From Polytrichum commune (Eukaryota; Streptophyta; Polytrichopsida; Polytrichales; Polytrichaceae): DNA of 64,000 bases. Below the pieces are notes generated by a model. It worked only from the letters and a program-made list of their open reading frames with translations, had not been told where the DNA came from and made no database searches. The stretch lies in assembly GCA_950295325.1 (NCBI GenBank), contig OX485808.1, forward strand, positions 39,574,527 through 39,638,526. The letters are read 5' to 3'. Of the stretch, positions 19,243 through 27,582 are shown one piece after another. The translations under genes were made by a program, and so were the position numbers. Within the stretch, counting starts at the first letter, position 1; each line of letters starts with the position of its first letter.

Positions 19243-22200
19243 CTACTTTTTGACGAGCAAAGGTGGCTTGAATTTTTTGCGGGGCCTTGGTGGGAGCTGG
19301 TCTTGTAAGCTACTTGTTGACTCTCTCTTGTTACTCAAATACTTACCAAATGAAGGAATATCAGGAAGCTTTGGGATGATAGCAGCGATATTTGGCTTTA
19401 CAGTGGTTTCGTCCCCACTTTGTTGTGGGACAGATCTCAAAGTGGTGCTATCGGTTTCATGCAATTCCAGTGCCCCTGACGTTGATGCTGCTACTGCAGA
19501 TCGCTCCATTTGCAACACCGGAGCTGTCTTCACATCTGCACAGATACTGTTACTCTTCAACCCTGTTGATGTAGCTTCTTTGGTCCGGGAACTGAACTCT
19601 TCCAAACTACATGTTGCAAGCCACCGGACTGTGGTGGCCACTTGTGAGTTGTAAAATGGTCTTCCTGACCTGCCATGCTTTCTGAAGCACTCTACCTCCA
19701 GGAGATTGGCAGCAGCATGAGCTTCAATACTGCAAAAACTCAACAGAGTAGGATCAAATCACAAGGTAGAAAGCTGTGCTTGGAACATGAGAGCATCCTG
19801 GATTCTATTCTGGTGAAATCAGACTAGAAGTGGTAATCTCACCTGTTGCTTTGCAACCGTTCCAGACTCTGCTGCACTGCACCAGCCAGACGCTGGATGG
19901 CTGCATCCCGTACGTCCTGTTGAACTGGAGGTTTTGGTTTAGGTGCATCTTTCTGTTCCAAGACCCCAACCCCATGCCACAGCAGCAAAACCATCAACAT
20001 AGTGCACTATCATCACATACTTCTCTCCAAATCCATATGGCTCCACTTTCCTGAACATGTCTAGATTTCTAAGCACCATGCACATTGACTAATTGATTTT
20101 ACTACATTTTGAGATCAGAGAACTGGGCTTCAGAGCATACAGGCTCTTGCTCTTTACTGCCATTTCGCGCACTGAATGCCTCCTCGGCTCGAAGCAAGGC
20201 ATCCATTTTATTCTCCACTTTCAATCCAGAGGCTCTTTTGTTCTGTTTTCGAATTGCTTCTGCAGCTTCATTTGTTGCTTCATCTGCATCCATTAAAGCT
20301 CATATTAAGTAGTTCAGTGTTTCAGTCCATCTACCACAGGCCATCAAATTGTCAGGCATAATTAATTGCTACTCGCTCAAAAATTGCCAAACATTAAACT
20401 CAGATACTTGGTGGTTTAGAACCAGTTTGGAGGACGTGGACTCTACCAACAGCATTAGAATGATTGTTGATAGATATGTCATGTTCGTTTTAAATATATT
20501 GCAGATGCATCCGTTGGACCTTGATGAATCCCGTCATCTCAATACAGGAAATGCAAAGAGTTACTCATCTCTATGAATATTATCCTTTTGCTGACTGAAC
20601 AGATGACCAGTTCTTTAGGAAGTTGCAAAACAATCCCAATCACAACACGTTTACAGCACAGAAATGTGATGCAGATGGATGAACAAAATTACTGGAATGA
20701 AAGAGAGCTAAGACCGACCTTCAGATGCGGATATGTCTTCATCGGAATGAGCCTTGTCCTCATCATCGTCATGACTCCAAAATTCACTCTTTGTTGCATT
20801 AAATTTTTCCTTGCCACCAGCGGCTGCACTGAAGATGCCAATCGATAGAACGACCATAATTTAGAATAATTTGTGCGTTTGTAAAGACTATTTTAGAAGT
20901 CAAATTCAGTCAAAGATATGGTTTATAAAATAATTTGATTGTATGTTAGTAGGATGCAATGTACATGAAGTGCTTTAAAACAACAACACATTACGTGATG
21001 CCATGAAGTTGGGATGAAAACCTTGCAAGAATGAATGAGGCAGATCGAGATACCCTGGCATCTTTGGCTGCATCGATGAGTCGTGTAAGATCAGCTGATA
21101 CACGATGGGGAAACTTGCAGACATCACATGTCCGATTACATAGAGACTCTGAAACCTGATACATAATCGGATAACCAGAGTCACTAATAACAAGGACACC
21201 AATACACCTGAAGCCTGAAAAATTTGCGAAGAGGTGACCACCCACGCTTTTGAAATGTTTGCGTGCACATCTAATTAGTCCCTTTGTTCACTGATTACTA
21301 CCCTTAACAGGCTATCGTATCCACCCCACAGCTGCTTGTTAAAAGCTTCTTGTCACCTTTAACACCTGTGTTGAAATATTAAGTGGAAGATTGATTGCTT
21401 GTATATATCTAGAGAGAACCAAATTCTGCGCTTTGTAAACTGCAACAAAATCTGAGAGCATACAGGAAAAGCTGTGGCCATTTACATCATGTATAATTGA
21501 TCTGCTGTAGCACGTGATCCACAAATCTGAAATTGGTTATGAGGAGGGTATATTGCCAATACAATTGACTTACCTGTTCACCGAAGTGAGCTAGTACGCT
21601 TTTACGACGGCAGGTAGCTGTCTCACAATATTGGATAACCTTCAAAACACAGGCTCCAAGTCAACAACCACAAACTTGTAGACTGATTGCTGAATAAACC
21701 TCGTAACTTTTACCAACCATTAATGTTCGAGAACATAAACCTTTCTAGCCAATGGTTGCACATAAAAGTACTATTGCCTATATTCCACATGCACAATAGC
21801 TGCTCAACATCACACTGGCAGAACCACACCTAGTAATACAGCCACAAACTCCACAAACTCCTTCCATATGCAAAGTCCCCAGCCCAAGAAATACATAAGA
21901 GATTAACCTCAGACTCTGGCCAGCTGTACCTGAGAGATAGCATCCATGTCTTTATTTAAGAGTGTTTTTCGATCTGCGAATGACTTCCCTTCTGGCTTTA
22001 AGTTCGGCTTTGTTGCAAGAAATTCCTGTCCACATATGATATGAGAGATTTCAACATGTTTATACCCACAAGAAGTGGCCTGACAACATCATCTTGTATT
22101 TAAGCTGTCAAGAAGGTGAAGAGTTCATTGTTGCAGGATGTACCATGAGTCTGCGATCGTCAAGGCCATGGTAGAGTACACTCTTGGCAGGTTTTCCATC

Positions 22201-25200
22201 ACGGCCAGCACGGCCTGATTCCTGATAAAAGCCCTCTAATGTCTTTGGAATATTGAAATGGCAAACTGTGCGTACATCCTTGCGATCAATACCCTGCCAA
22301 ACATAACTTTCACTAAGATGGATAAATAGAATTACTATCAAGCTTCTTTCCGAGCACCAAGTGGACATGTCATAGGGCCATTGGTACTGGATATACAATG
22401 GCCCTATGAAAATATGGTGCTCAAGTGAGACTCGCATATCCTACTTTGAAGAAAACTATTTGTGCAATGGGCATAAAATCGGTGAACCCTTCCTATTACA
22501 AATCCTCTGTTTGTGCAATACTTCAAAGACTTGTCTTGTAAGGCATAGAATTAATTGCAGTGACTACATAATTTGATGGTAGATTGGGTTGTTCGTTGCT
22601 GCGAAGGCACTCACCATACTGCATGTGTCCAACGATAATATGCCATGCAAAAGATACATGAGACACAGAATTAGAGAGCTAGGTAAAGTATAGAATGCAG
22701 TTCAAAGAGCTCTAAAACATGAAATTCACAAAATGATAACAAGACAACAAGAAACTGAACCAAAGACCAACTATTCCAGAGGATCAGGCAACCAGATTAC
22801 TAAACACTTGGTGGATATCTTGCTTCAAGTATTTAGTATTCCAGTTGTCTGATCAAGGCAATGCCTCTAGCATCCACCAAGGAAGTCAGAAATGGAGAAT
22901 TCTAGTGCTCAAAGGAAGTGAACATCTTCATTGTGTCATCACTTCATTGACGAAGGTCGCATCGCATGGAAGGCTATCATGCATGATTGCAAGACTCTCT
23001 CGGTGGCGGTGGCGGCAAAGTGGTTTCTGGAACAATTTGACTAACGGAGGGGTGCGCGTGGAATTATTTGCACGCAGAGTGGCGATAGGGTCACTTGGAT
23101 GCTGCGCCCTCCACTTAATGAAGGTGTAAAAAATTAAGAGATTGGGTATCTAGTTGTTAAGTTCTATGGTCACATTCTTTTATGCCTTCCAACCATGTTG
23201 CAAGGGAGCTGTTGGTTTCTTGCCATTAAGGCTAGTGCCTTTGATTCTTTACTTATGTTGGTAGCTAGCCAAGGCCTTGTCAATTTGTACATCTGGTCTG
23301 GTCTTTGTGTAGATCCCTTCTCCTTGCTTCTCTCCCCAAGCCCGCGTTGGGGTCACTTGAGGTGTATTGTGAGTGTACTGTTACCTATCAATGGGAAAAT
23401 TGCCATTTGATTCAAAAAAAGAAAAGAAAAGAAAAGAAAAGAAGGTTAATATCTGACAAGCTACATACCCGAATGCAACAGTCGCTACCATGATATGAAC
23501 CTTGCCAGATGTCCATTCTCCCAAGTGCTTACTACGTACTTTGTCCCCTAGTCCTGCATGATAGACTGGAAGATCTCCAACATTTATACCACTGTCAACT
23601 ATAGAGCTTGGACATCCAGGATGTTCTTTACTCCTCGGGCTTCAAAAACAGTACCAGCATAAATGCTAAAGCAACAAACTGCTGTATATGATCTGCCATA
23701 CAAGGAATTTTGATAAATGTGACTTACATTACCTCGGCAAGAAAGCCCATCTTTGGACAAGCGGGCACCAATATCATTGCAAGTGTCTTTAGAATGGCAA
23801 TAAACAATTGCACATTCATCAGGGGTGGAGATGAGCAACTCCCGCAAGTCCTTGTAAGAATCCTTCAGCAAGTCTTTGTACCTAACTGGATATAAAGATA
23901 ATAAAAACATTTCCATCAGCGGCTGGGCGTTGATAGTGAGATGAACACTATGATATCCACTCCCTACCACAACCTCAACTGCCAATGAGATGTGCCATTA
24001 AGCAAGGAGTGCTCTCAATGAATGTGACAATCATGTACAGGTTAGGGAGTAGAGTGCAAGCTGTCCAATGAGCCCCTCAGCGTAACTCAGGTAACCCTCT
24101 CAGGACATTATTGAGTGACACAAACCTTCATAAGAGATGTTGGGGCGATTGAATGAAGATATCAGAATGGAGGGCTGACGTAGGCATAACGATTTTACAA
24201 CATCATCCTGCACCCTGCTCATTTCATTGTGAAACACACAATTATCAGCTACTGAATACAACTTTTGACTCCATGTACCAACCCTTTGTGGACAGTTGCA
24301 CAGTATGCGAAGTCTTACTTTTTAGCAGCTGTTGCCGTCAAGGCTAGGATTGGAACACCTGGAAGATAGCTCCTGAGAGATGACAATTTACGGTAGCTGG
24401 GCCTGTGCAAAAATGTTTTACATACCCTAGTGTGAGGCTGCGAACTCCACAGAGGAGTTATGTGAAACACCTTGAGACAATTCAGTTATTCATTTCACTG
24501 ACAATGAAAGTCTAAAAATGTCCATCTCACTTGAGAACAGAATCTTTACATCTAAATGTATCTCAAATATTACATATGCACCCTGAACTGTAAAAACATC
24601 TTGTCAGCTAACCTGAAATCGTGACCCCAGGAAGATATGCAGTGTGCCTGCAAAAACAACAGTCCAATACATTACTACCATCAAGATTGCTGTATATTGT
24701 AGTTGAGAATGATCCATAGTGCCTACCAAATAAATTAATCAAAGATTGTTGCAAAAATACTTATAGATGCAGGCAAGCAAGCAGAGACGAAGTGGAGATC
24801 GTATCTACTAAACAAGACAAACTTTTGGTCCACTACAAAGCAAACTTCTAAAATTGAATATTGGCAAGTTTAATTTTCTTGCTCTTAAACTTCTTGATAA
24901 AATCATAAACAACAATTCCTAACAGGACAACGCTGTTTATGTACAGGAAGCTTCTAGGACTATCACAGGATGAATAACCTGCCAGTCCCTCAGAAATAGT
25001 CCATTGAAAACCAAGAAGTCAAAGACATCGATACAGGATACAGATCAGGGAAAAAATTGGATGTGTATTCTACCTCATCAATGGCAATGAGAGTAAGAAG
25101 ACCCCTGTCATGAAGTTTTTTCAATTTTCCACTGAAGCCTCCAGTGTCGATCAATTCAGGTGTCACATATAGCAACCTCAGATTTGGACTCCCTGAATCC

Positions 25201-27582
25201 AAATCCTTGTAGATCTGATGCAAGGAAATATGTAACGAGGTGAGAGGAAGCACTCACCACGAACAGCAGCACCTCATGTAGCTACAAACATCCAGTAAAC
25301 AAATGCTCCTACTATATATAAGTACTTATCAAATGCAGGAATGCAGATCTCAATCTTCAAGATGGCCCCAAGGCGCTACGCAAATGTTTGATAGAAGTCC
25401 AACTCATCTTGCTACCTTCGCCTTGACAGCTGTTGGTTGTGTCGATGACAGATGCTCAGCAGCAATATTCTGTTTCTTCAGACCTGTGACTTGGTCCTCC
25501 TGTACATGAATAGAGGAACTCATCTTCAGACCAGATATCAACCCACATATGGAAATAGCCAAAGTGACAGTTACAACTTCATTATCTGCTGTATGTAGGC
25601 GATAGATGACATGATTGGGAGCACATGGGTCGTACCATCAGAGCTGCAAGTTGTGGATTCAAACCCAATCGTAGCATCACCCCCGCCCACCAACATCTCC
25701 ATCAGTAGTTGCTAAGCGGATAATTTCGAATCAACTAACCTTTAATTATTTCCATAAGAGCATAACCTTCATAATACAAAATCAGAAGACATTACACAAA
25801 TGTAATCTGTTGTACTACATTACACGAATCCGATGGAAAGCATCACGCATTTGAAGAAACCTGTTACTATTCTTATAGTTCCCGACTAAAGACCACTTTG
25901 CTTCTGGTCTAATCTTGAGCTGGCAGCTAGGCGTATCCTTGCCTATTGTACATAAAAAGAGCAGGAAAAGATATAGATAAGACTGTAGCCATATTTTATT
26001 GATTACGGGGAGATGAAGATACCAATTAGAGGAGATACCACTAGAACAATCCCAGGTTTCACTAGTGCTGGAAGTTCGTAACAGATAGACTTTCCACCAC
26101 CAGTTGGCATTAAACAGAAGCAGTCCTTCCCTACAGCACCAAAGACAAACCCTTCTCTTTAGCACTTCTCTTAAGAACATAAAAATATACTTGCCATCGC
26201 TCTATATTTTGTCAATATGATTAATACGAACAAGGGCGACCTATTGTTCTTTACGCCAGTGCTTGGACTTCGTCCACATGGTCATCAGCTTCAATGCACT
26301 GTATTAAATACTTACTGATACATCTTCATCCCATTTACAAGAAGGCATTAAATAAATTACCCTGAAGGACAGCTTCAATTGCTGGAAGTTGCAAGCCCCT
26401 GAAGCTGGTGTGTCCAAAATGTTCCAGCAGGAGTGCCTGCAGTTCCTTGTGCAAACCATCATTCTCTGCAGCAACTGCTCTAACACATAAATGGGACGTT
26501 AAAGGATGCTTATAAGTTCTCAGTGCCAAGAGAATCGTGAAACTTGCTGTATCAATGCATTCATCCTGAAATATCAGAGTCAAATCTCAAGTCGTTCAAC
26601 AATCCTCTCCAACTATATCAGCCTGTATGGCAATTAAGGAAACCCATCCAATCGATGGAGTAAGGCATCATCTCCGTCAATATGAACGTAAGGGGGACTC
26701 CACTTTACCAGCAATCGTTGAGCATCATCTCAACACTTTAATTGCAAATGTACTGCCTAACTTCCAATGTGCTTATTGAAGAGAATAGTTTTGCTTCTTC
26801 CCACGCAAGATCCTTGTCCTAGAAGGTACAGCATTCTGAAGAGCTGGTAGAAATTCTACCGAAATCAATCCACTCATTTCTGAACCTCTACGTTACCTGT
26901 GCCAGAATTCAGTACAATTGCCATAGCTTATCTAGGGAGCATACTGCGGCAAATACAATACACAGCCTGAATTATCTCCCTCCGTCGCAGCCATCATCAA
27001 TCACCCGAATTTTATAGAGGCAGTGAAAGAGATCATGACTTAAATATACACGTTGAATTTATTGTAGTTATCTTATGAATTGATAGCCATGTATTTAGCT
27101 ATCTCACTCAGCTACAAGTGGTACTCCAGGCATGTAGAGTGCATCGCTCCAAAGCACAACACAATAAATGTGAGGAAAGGATTAAAATAGCACTAGAAGT
27201 AACCAGACTATGTAAATTACAAAAATCGGTAATTCAAAAATTTAAAATGTGTGAGATGTTATTTCCAATCCTGATAGCACGCTGGTACTTACATCGTCGC
27301 TCATTGGAAGCACAAAAACACCAAAGTGCCAGAGAAACAGAACACTACAACTAGCATTACACAAGTAGTAATCAATATTGCACATGAATTGAATGAGGTT
27401 TTCCAACTTCAACAGCTCGGTAAAGCTTACGACCACAAAAGAAGCACACATTCTTCACTGAATACCATCACACAAGATCAAATTGCATTGCTGGGCTTAA
27501 AAATTTTGAGATTAAGACTCGCACCTCGGCCTGTCAGATGTGCCTTCTGTGAGCGCTGCAATGGCAGCGAAGACTTCTTCAT
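19243..27582 (-). CDS. RECQL3: RecQ-type ATP-dependent DNA helicase, RECQL3-like (20 exons)
   Basis: RecQ helicases unwind DNA 3' to 5' using ATP and act in nuclear recombination and repair. Inferred exons, 5' to 3' on the minus strand: 27582-27525, 26477-26361, 26130-26023, 25643-25636, 25499-25416, 25214-25074, 24647-24613, 24402-24319, 24214-24126, 23885-23733, 23565-23469, 22618-22615, 22293-22144, 22025-21930, 21639-21574, 21146-21022, 20828-20719, 20283-20141, 19952-19843, 19729-19243. Together they give 2265 nt, 754 residues, in frame. Visible motifs: PTGGGKS (about 67-73), DEAH (171-174), [28 protein letters not shown] (350-359), and a zinc-binding set C418/C433/C437/C440. The start MKKSSLPLQ and the C-terminal stretch [17 protein letters not shown] resemble the plant RECQ3 group (Arabidopsis about 713 aa); no HRDC domain is seen. 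The least certain splice is the 20141 donor, chosen because it keeps frame. No break was found. Confidence 0.93.
22615..22618 (-). other. RECQL3: 4-nt microexon of RECQL3 (TATG)
   Basis: On the minus strand this reads cacatgcag, then TATG, then gtgagt, a strong acceptor and a consensus donor. The upstream exon ends TTCGG with donor gtatgt, and the downstream exon begins GGTATTGAT. Joining all three restores F-G-M-G-I-D, an invariant RecQ motif V segment. Direct joining of the flanking exons is out of frame. A competing explanation is the donor TAT|gtagct in the upstream exon, which would give FGYGID. Confidence 0.82.
22835..23446 (+). mobile_element. Possible truncated non-LTR retrotransposon 3' end in a RECQL3 intron
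   Basis: The stretch lies in the 850-nt intron between exon 11 and the 4-nt microexon. It is more GC-rich than the surrounding intron and ends TATCAATGGGAAAATTGCC, followed by an A-rich tail and an AAAAG repeat at 23414-23443. That order resembles plant LINE 3' ends. No reverse transcriptase motif and no clear target duplication were found, so the class is uncertain. Confidence 0.4.
25636..25643 (-). other. RECQL3: 8-nt microexon of RECQL3 (CTCTGATG)
   Basis: On the minus strand this reads cttgcag, then CTCTGATG, then gtacg. The exon before it ends in ATTG and the next starts GAGGACCAA. Inserting the 8 nt gives codons for I-A-L-M-E-D-Q-V, the conserved RecQ motif Ia region. Omitting it shifts the frame. 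Inferred from splice signals and family conservation; no transcript was seen. Confidence 0.85.

Follow-up and report, generated by a model that had tools for sequence, protein, structure and literature searches.

A 4-nt microexon predicted to complete motif V in a RECQ3 helicase gene of the moss Polytrichum commune, a new example of a published microexon class

Described RECQ3 microexons and the Polytrichum locus

Two of the plant microexon clusters described by Yu et al. (2022, Nat Commun 13:820; PMC8831610) are assigned to RECQ3 (AT4G35740) in the main text of that paper: Cluster 5, of 4 nt and phase 2, and, distant from it in the same gene, Cluster 18, of 8 nt and phase 1. The same text describes 1-nt microexons in APC11 and VPS55, which are likewise tiny, frame-restoring and conserved in land plants, although they belong to other genes and have other sizes. 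RecQ was not mentioned in the main text of the microexon database paper PMC12409088, and nothing on RECQ3 microexons was found in the accessible text of PMC7042379 or PMC6009662.

The stretch of DNA analyzed here (the window; 64,000 nt of contig OX485808.1 of P. commune, positions 39,574,527 to 39,638,526) carries on its minus strand a RECQ3 (RECQL3) coding region with two predicted coding microexons. The exon TATG (22615..22618) was compared with Cluster 5 by size, phase and gene as given in the main text, and was the same in gene, size (4 nt) and phase (2). Exon 4 (25643-25636) agreed with Cluster 18 in gene, size (8 nt) and phase (1), so both window microexons (2/2) matched the published RECQ3 clusters in size and phase. 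Since size, phase and gene agree with Cluster 5, the TATG exon was considered a correctly recognised member of the published class. The 4-nt RECQ3 exon is already described in other plants, and the exon found here is a new example of a known thing. Conservation in other land plants, which the first-pass annotation of this DNA had proposed to check, is in effect already published as Cluster 5 in the main text of PMC8831610.

Gene model and reading frame

The whole coding region extended over 19243..27582 (minus strand) and consisted of 20 exons with 2289 nt, encoding 762 aa with no internal stop. In the assembled gene model, 19 of the 19 introns opened with GT and closed with AG. Three domains were detected above the cut-off in the predicted protein, DEAD (PF00270), Helicase_C (PF00271) and RecQ zinc-binding (PF16124), the same as in the RecQ3 subfamily, which includes Arabidopsis RECQ3 and human RECQ5. 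When the first 489 aa were compared with the PDB, the eight best distinct sequences were all ATP-dependent DNA helicase Q5 (RECQ5), with 330.8-333.6 bits, while BLM reached 327.8; this lead of about 6 bits (best 333.6 versus 327.8) is one of pairwise PDB matches and not of a phylogeny. A table in a review pairs human RECQ5 with plant RECQ3. The predicted gene agrees with RECQ3 as the host of both clusters in its domains and in its best PDB matches, which are to RECQ5, the RecQ3-subfamily protein of humans.

Exon 11 (23469..23565, minus strand, 97 nt) ended with GCATTCGG (TTCGG) at 23469, followed by the donor gtatgt, and exon 13 (22144..22293, minus strand, 150 nt) opened with GGTATTGAT at 22293, preceded by ttggcag. 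These two exons are mutually out of frame. The microexon at 22618-22615, exon 12, is found between them as cag/TATG/gtgagt; its insertion restores the reading frame, and the 962 coding nt upstream place it in phase 2. The positions and letters that the first-pass annotation had given for the end of exon 11, for TATG and for the start of exon 13 were all found in the sequence. The gap of 1.2 kb that it reported was correct in extent, and is more exactly composed of an intron of 850 nt (intron 11, 22619..23468), the 4-nt exon and an intron of 321 nt (intron 12, 22294..22614). The spliced join of TTCGG, TATG and GGTATTGAT would be read as TTC GGT ATG GGT ATT GAT, in which the microexon gives the Met of FGMGID, the motif V of RecQ. 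The proposal that the microexon is needed for motif V was borne out by the frames of exons 11 and 13, by the FGMGID obtained with TATG and by the open frame of 762 aa.

Inclusion of TATG yields the full 762 aa, whereas skipping it shifts the frame and leads to a stop after 339 aa. The protein predicted from the skipped form lacks the zinc-binding domain, and its Helicase_C match fell from 68.1 to 31.6 bits in the profile comparison. Retention of intron 11 would end the protein after 349 aa and retention of intron 12 after 338 aa.

Single inserted exons were enumerated between exons 11 and 13, taking internal exons of 1-60 nt that are bounded by AG and GT, lie 40 nt or more away from the intron ends and keep the whole gene open. 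This gave 36 in-frame, stop-free solutions, in which TATG had the top summed splice score (9.7, the next being 7.2) and was the only one to produce FGMGID. The scores were obtained with a matrix made from 15 other introns of RECQ3, small and blunt and not able alone to tell real from false sites, in which the microexon acceptor scored 4.2 bits, under all 15 training acceptors (5.9-14.5), and its donor 5.5 bits, with two of the 15 training donors lower (range 2.5-10.8). Joins that lead directly from exon 11 into exon 13 were also enumerated; donors were allowed as far as 120 nt beyond exon 11, and acceptors within an interval that begins 200 nt ahead of exon 13 and closes 60 nt inside it. There were 52 such joins in frame and free of stops; among the best 15 of them, six had a donor plus acceptor sum of 10.3-13.4, above the 9.7 of the microexon, although both kinds of sum are not strictly comparable because the path through the microexon involves four sites (6.4, 4.2, 5.5, and 6.5). 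All six were rejected, as they cut exon 11 before motif V.

A second predicted coding microexon was required upstream. The gap between exon 3, ending with CTCTAATTG, and exon 5, starting with GAGGACCAA, requires 8 nt, and these are supplied by cttgcag/CTCTGATG/gtacga at 25643-25636 (exon 4, 25636..25643, minus strand). With 271 coding nt upstream, this exon is in phase 1 and completes SPLIALMEDQV; when it is skipped, a stop follows after 104 aa. It was the best (8.3, next 7.1) of 22 open single-exon solutions for the gap. Its sites were weak in the matrix, with 1.6 for its own acceptor and -0.4 for the donor before the exon. Among the best 8 of the 42 open direct joins across it, two summed above its 8.3 (8.9 and 8.5), and the better one (8.9) was discarded since SPLIALM is lost with it. 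The 8-nt microexon is not mentioned in the first-pass annotation of the TATG exon, although the "exon 11" numbering used there fits a count that includes it.

Regarding the flanking introns, a T-rich stretch was located in intron 11 (23416..23435, minus strand), with 85% T over 20 nt against a maximum of 65% in the other 18 introns, so that intron 11 was the only one of the 19 RECQ3 introns above 80% T over 20 nt; being a single case, this stretch is by itself no proof. No run above 80% G over 10 nt was present in any of the 19. The part of intron 11 at approximately 22933-23440 resembled a degenerate dispersed repeat, with 14 partial matches besides itself (63-83% identity) on contigs C1, C2, C3, C5 and C6. 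It is possibly an old transposon insertion that would have lengthened the intron and left the microexon intact. No further copy of intron 12 was found in the genome. Intron 12 contains, downstream of the microexon, an inverted repeat (22370-22409) with a perfect 14-bp stem and a 12-nt loop, TCATAGGGCCATTG / CAATGGCCCTATGA.

Motif V was also inspected in other RecQ sequences. Met occupied this position in the four printed RECQ5 alignments and in 12 of 13 prokaryotic RecQ loci, with Leu (FGLGID) in the remaining one; these 13 confirmed loci came from 67 matched stretches in a biased scan, whose patterns partly contained FGMGID and which informs motif conservation alone. The description of FGMGID as invariant in RecQ helicases, made in the earlier annotation, proved slightly too strong in view of the locus with Leu. 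In a whole-genome search with a degenerate pattern, AFGMGID was found uninterrupted at four other places, all in RecQ-like contexts, and motif V is therefore kept up in the paralogues. No spliced RECQ3 retrocopy was found in this search, since the four matches are exons of other RecQ paralogues with letters that differ from those of spliced RECQ3.

Among the paralogous places examined, the requirement for a 4-nt exon was seen in RECQ3 alone. In the RecQ paralogue L024 (C5:44780300-44783000), one open stretch has ATVAFGMG at its end, and the next starts with GINKPDV or INKPDV. Its motif V seems to be split as well, with a single ordinary intron following FGMG and no need of a microexon. Given this paralogue, the idea that an interrupted motif V is unique to RECQ3 was dropped. 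Two further RecQ paralogue exons (C2:43549459-43549698 and C2:35337325-35337564) differed by one residue in the compared stretch and may stem from another RecQ gene that was duplicated recently.

Interpretation of the locus and alternative readings

The best explanation, to which we give a probability of about 95%, is that the window holds an intact RECQ3 gene in which a constitutively needed TATG exon would be spliced between exons 11 and 13, as the local member of Cluster 5 and together with its Cluster 18 partner. It is based on what was observed in the letters, the frame and the open reading frame, on the uniqueness of TATG among the single inserted exons and on the match in size and phase. 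The spliceosome would include the 4 nt, and the main text of Yu et al. suggests that the two flanking introns would be removed one after the other. According to the literature, an exon of 4 nt is too short for exonic enhancers, and intronic signals would replace them.

Constitutive inclusion of TATG is the most likely behavior of the exon, and regulated skipping is possible. An alternatively spliced TATG was considered improbable as an account of the locus; in this reading, exon skipping or the retention of an intron, with stops after 338-349 aa, would act as a switch on helicase production by way of a transcript that is truncated or targeted by NMD. In its favor, the skipping of TATG or the retention of either flanking intron ends the frame before the zinc-binding domain, and the main text of PMC8831610 reports higher retention beside microexons, chiefly of the upstream intron. 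Against this, the same text reports that more than 72% (50/69) of the constitutively spliced microexons of Arabidopsis kept an adjoining intron on chromatin, with an unspliced ratio of nearly 0 in nucleoplasm and cytoplasm; this pattern suggests slow rather than alternative splicing.

A gene with no microexon at this point, the alternative that the first-pass annotation had itself named, was judged very unlikely. Exon 11 would then be longer by 4 nt, ending with TTCGGGTAT, and its donor gtagct would lead directly to exon 13 and give FGYGID, by a join that is canonical GT-AG, in frame and stop-free. Nevertheless, that donor scored 0.1 bits, whereas the 15 training donors had 2.5-10.8 and the gtatgt located 4 nt upstream had 6.4. 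A weak donor does not settle the matter by itself, as the one before the 8-nt exon likewise scored only -0.4. Furthermore, the join would place a Tyr where the prokaryotic loci have Met or, in one case, Leu and where the RECQ5 alignments have Met, and it offers no account of the agreement with a published RECQ3 microexon of 4 nt and phase 2.

The chance tests for the TATG site were all designed post hoc, with the site already known. In these terms, the bare AG-NATG-GT core is not rare, with 13 occurrences in the window versus 11.5 expected. The sequence CAGTATGGTGAGT, with at most one mismatch, occurred once in the window (0.12 expected) and was present in 12 of 100 shuffles. A pseudogene or broken junction with TATG matching by chance is scarcely credible: the bare core does appear in 122 of 2000 dinucleotide-shuffled copies of the exon 11-13 intron, but only 2 of the 2000 had the core together with two splice sites whose scores equalled or exceeded the real ones, a second microexon is also required and present, with its equivalent core in 0 of 2000 shuffles, and the 20 exons join in an open frame with GT/AG at every intron.

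Age of the RECQ3 microexons in the context of mosses

Polytrichum-like mosses have seven chromosomes, and 406.07 of the 407.81 Mb of the assembly were contained in seven contigs. Three LEAFY genes were found in this genome, on contigs C1 and C7, one with His/Arg and two with Asp/Cys at the presumed diagnostic sites. The residues compared were taken to be the diagnostic sites 312 and 345, with His/Arg presumed to be type I-like and Asp/Cys type II-like. The reference structures were 4bhk, presumably the Physcomitrella protein, and 2vy1, presumably that of Arabidopsis. Their PDB names are FLORICAULA/LEAFY HOMOLOG 1 (4bhk) and PROTEIN LEAFY (2vy1); the two Asp/Cys copies had 94 and 90 of 102 residues identical to 4bhk and 72 and 74 to 2vy1, and the His/Arg copy had 83 of 102 identical to 4bhk and 77 to 2vy1. 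In the accessible part of a LEAFY study, which names the diagnostic sites, type II is assigned to Bryopsida, and both types to P. commune, to several other moss lineages and also to one liverwort. The LEAFY genes of this assembly most likely indicate a moss outside Bryopsida, perhaps a Polytrichum-like one, with a liverwort as a less likely source. The YABBY family gave 0 matches in the genome, a result with no evidential weight as no control matched. The Self-incomp_S1 family gave 40 matches genome-wide, several of them clustered on C5 and C6, and was uninformative for the clade.

Concerning the age of the microexons, the main text of PMC8831610 distributes 45 clusters as follows: 35 were common to moss, 4 were restricted to flowering plants (4, 12, 39, and 43), 1 was common to Chlorella, and 5 were present in Selaginella but not in Physcomitrella and were dated to early vascular plants. 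The two window examples occur in a moss, whereas the model moss Physcomitrella reportedly has no RecQ3, as stated in a review. Given this reported absence, elimination would place Clusters 5 and 18 among those five. Both RECQ3 microexons are probably as old as the split between mosses and vascular plants, the Physcomitrella lineage having later lost the entire gene; this age is drawn from two papers and one locus.

The TATG exon reveals no new mechanism. The concern that automated annotation would misplace such a junction or call a pseudogene, raised in the first-pass annotation, is borne out in print in the main text of Yu et al. (2022; PMC8831610), and the gene-model trap is confirmed at this locus, where a pipeline that overlooks the 4 nt and the 8 nt would yield a shortened or wrongly spliced model of a DNA-repair helicase. 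If the proposed age is true, the absence of these exons from Physcomitrella would reflect gene loss and not a late origin of the exons, and the dates published for plant microexons would need a slight correction.
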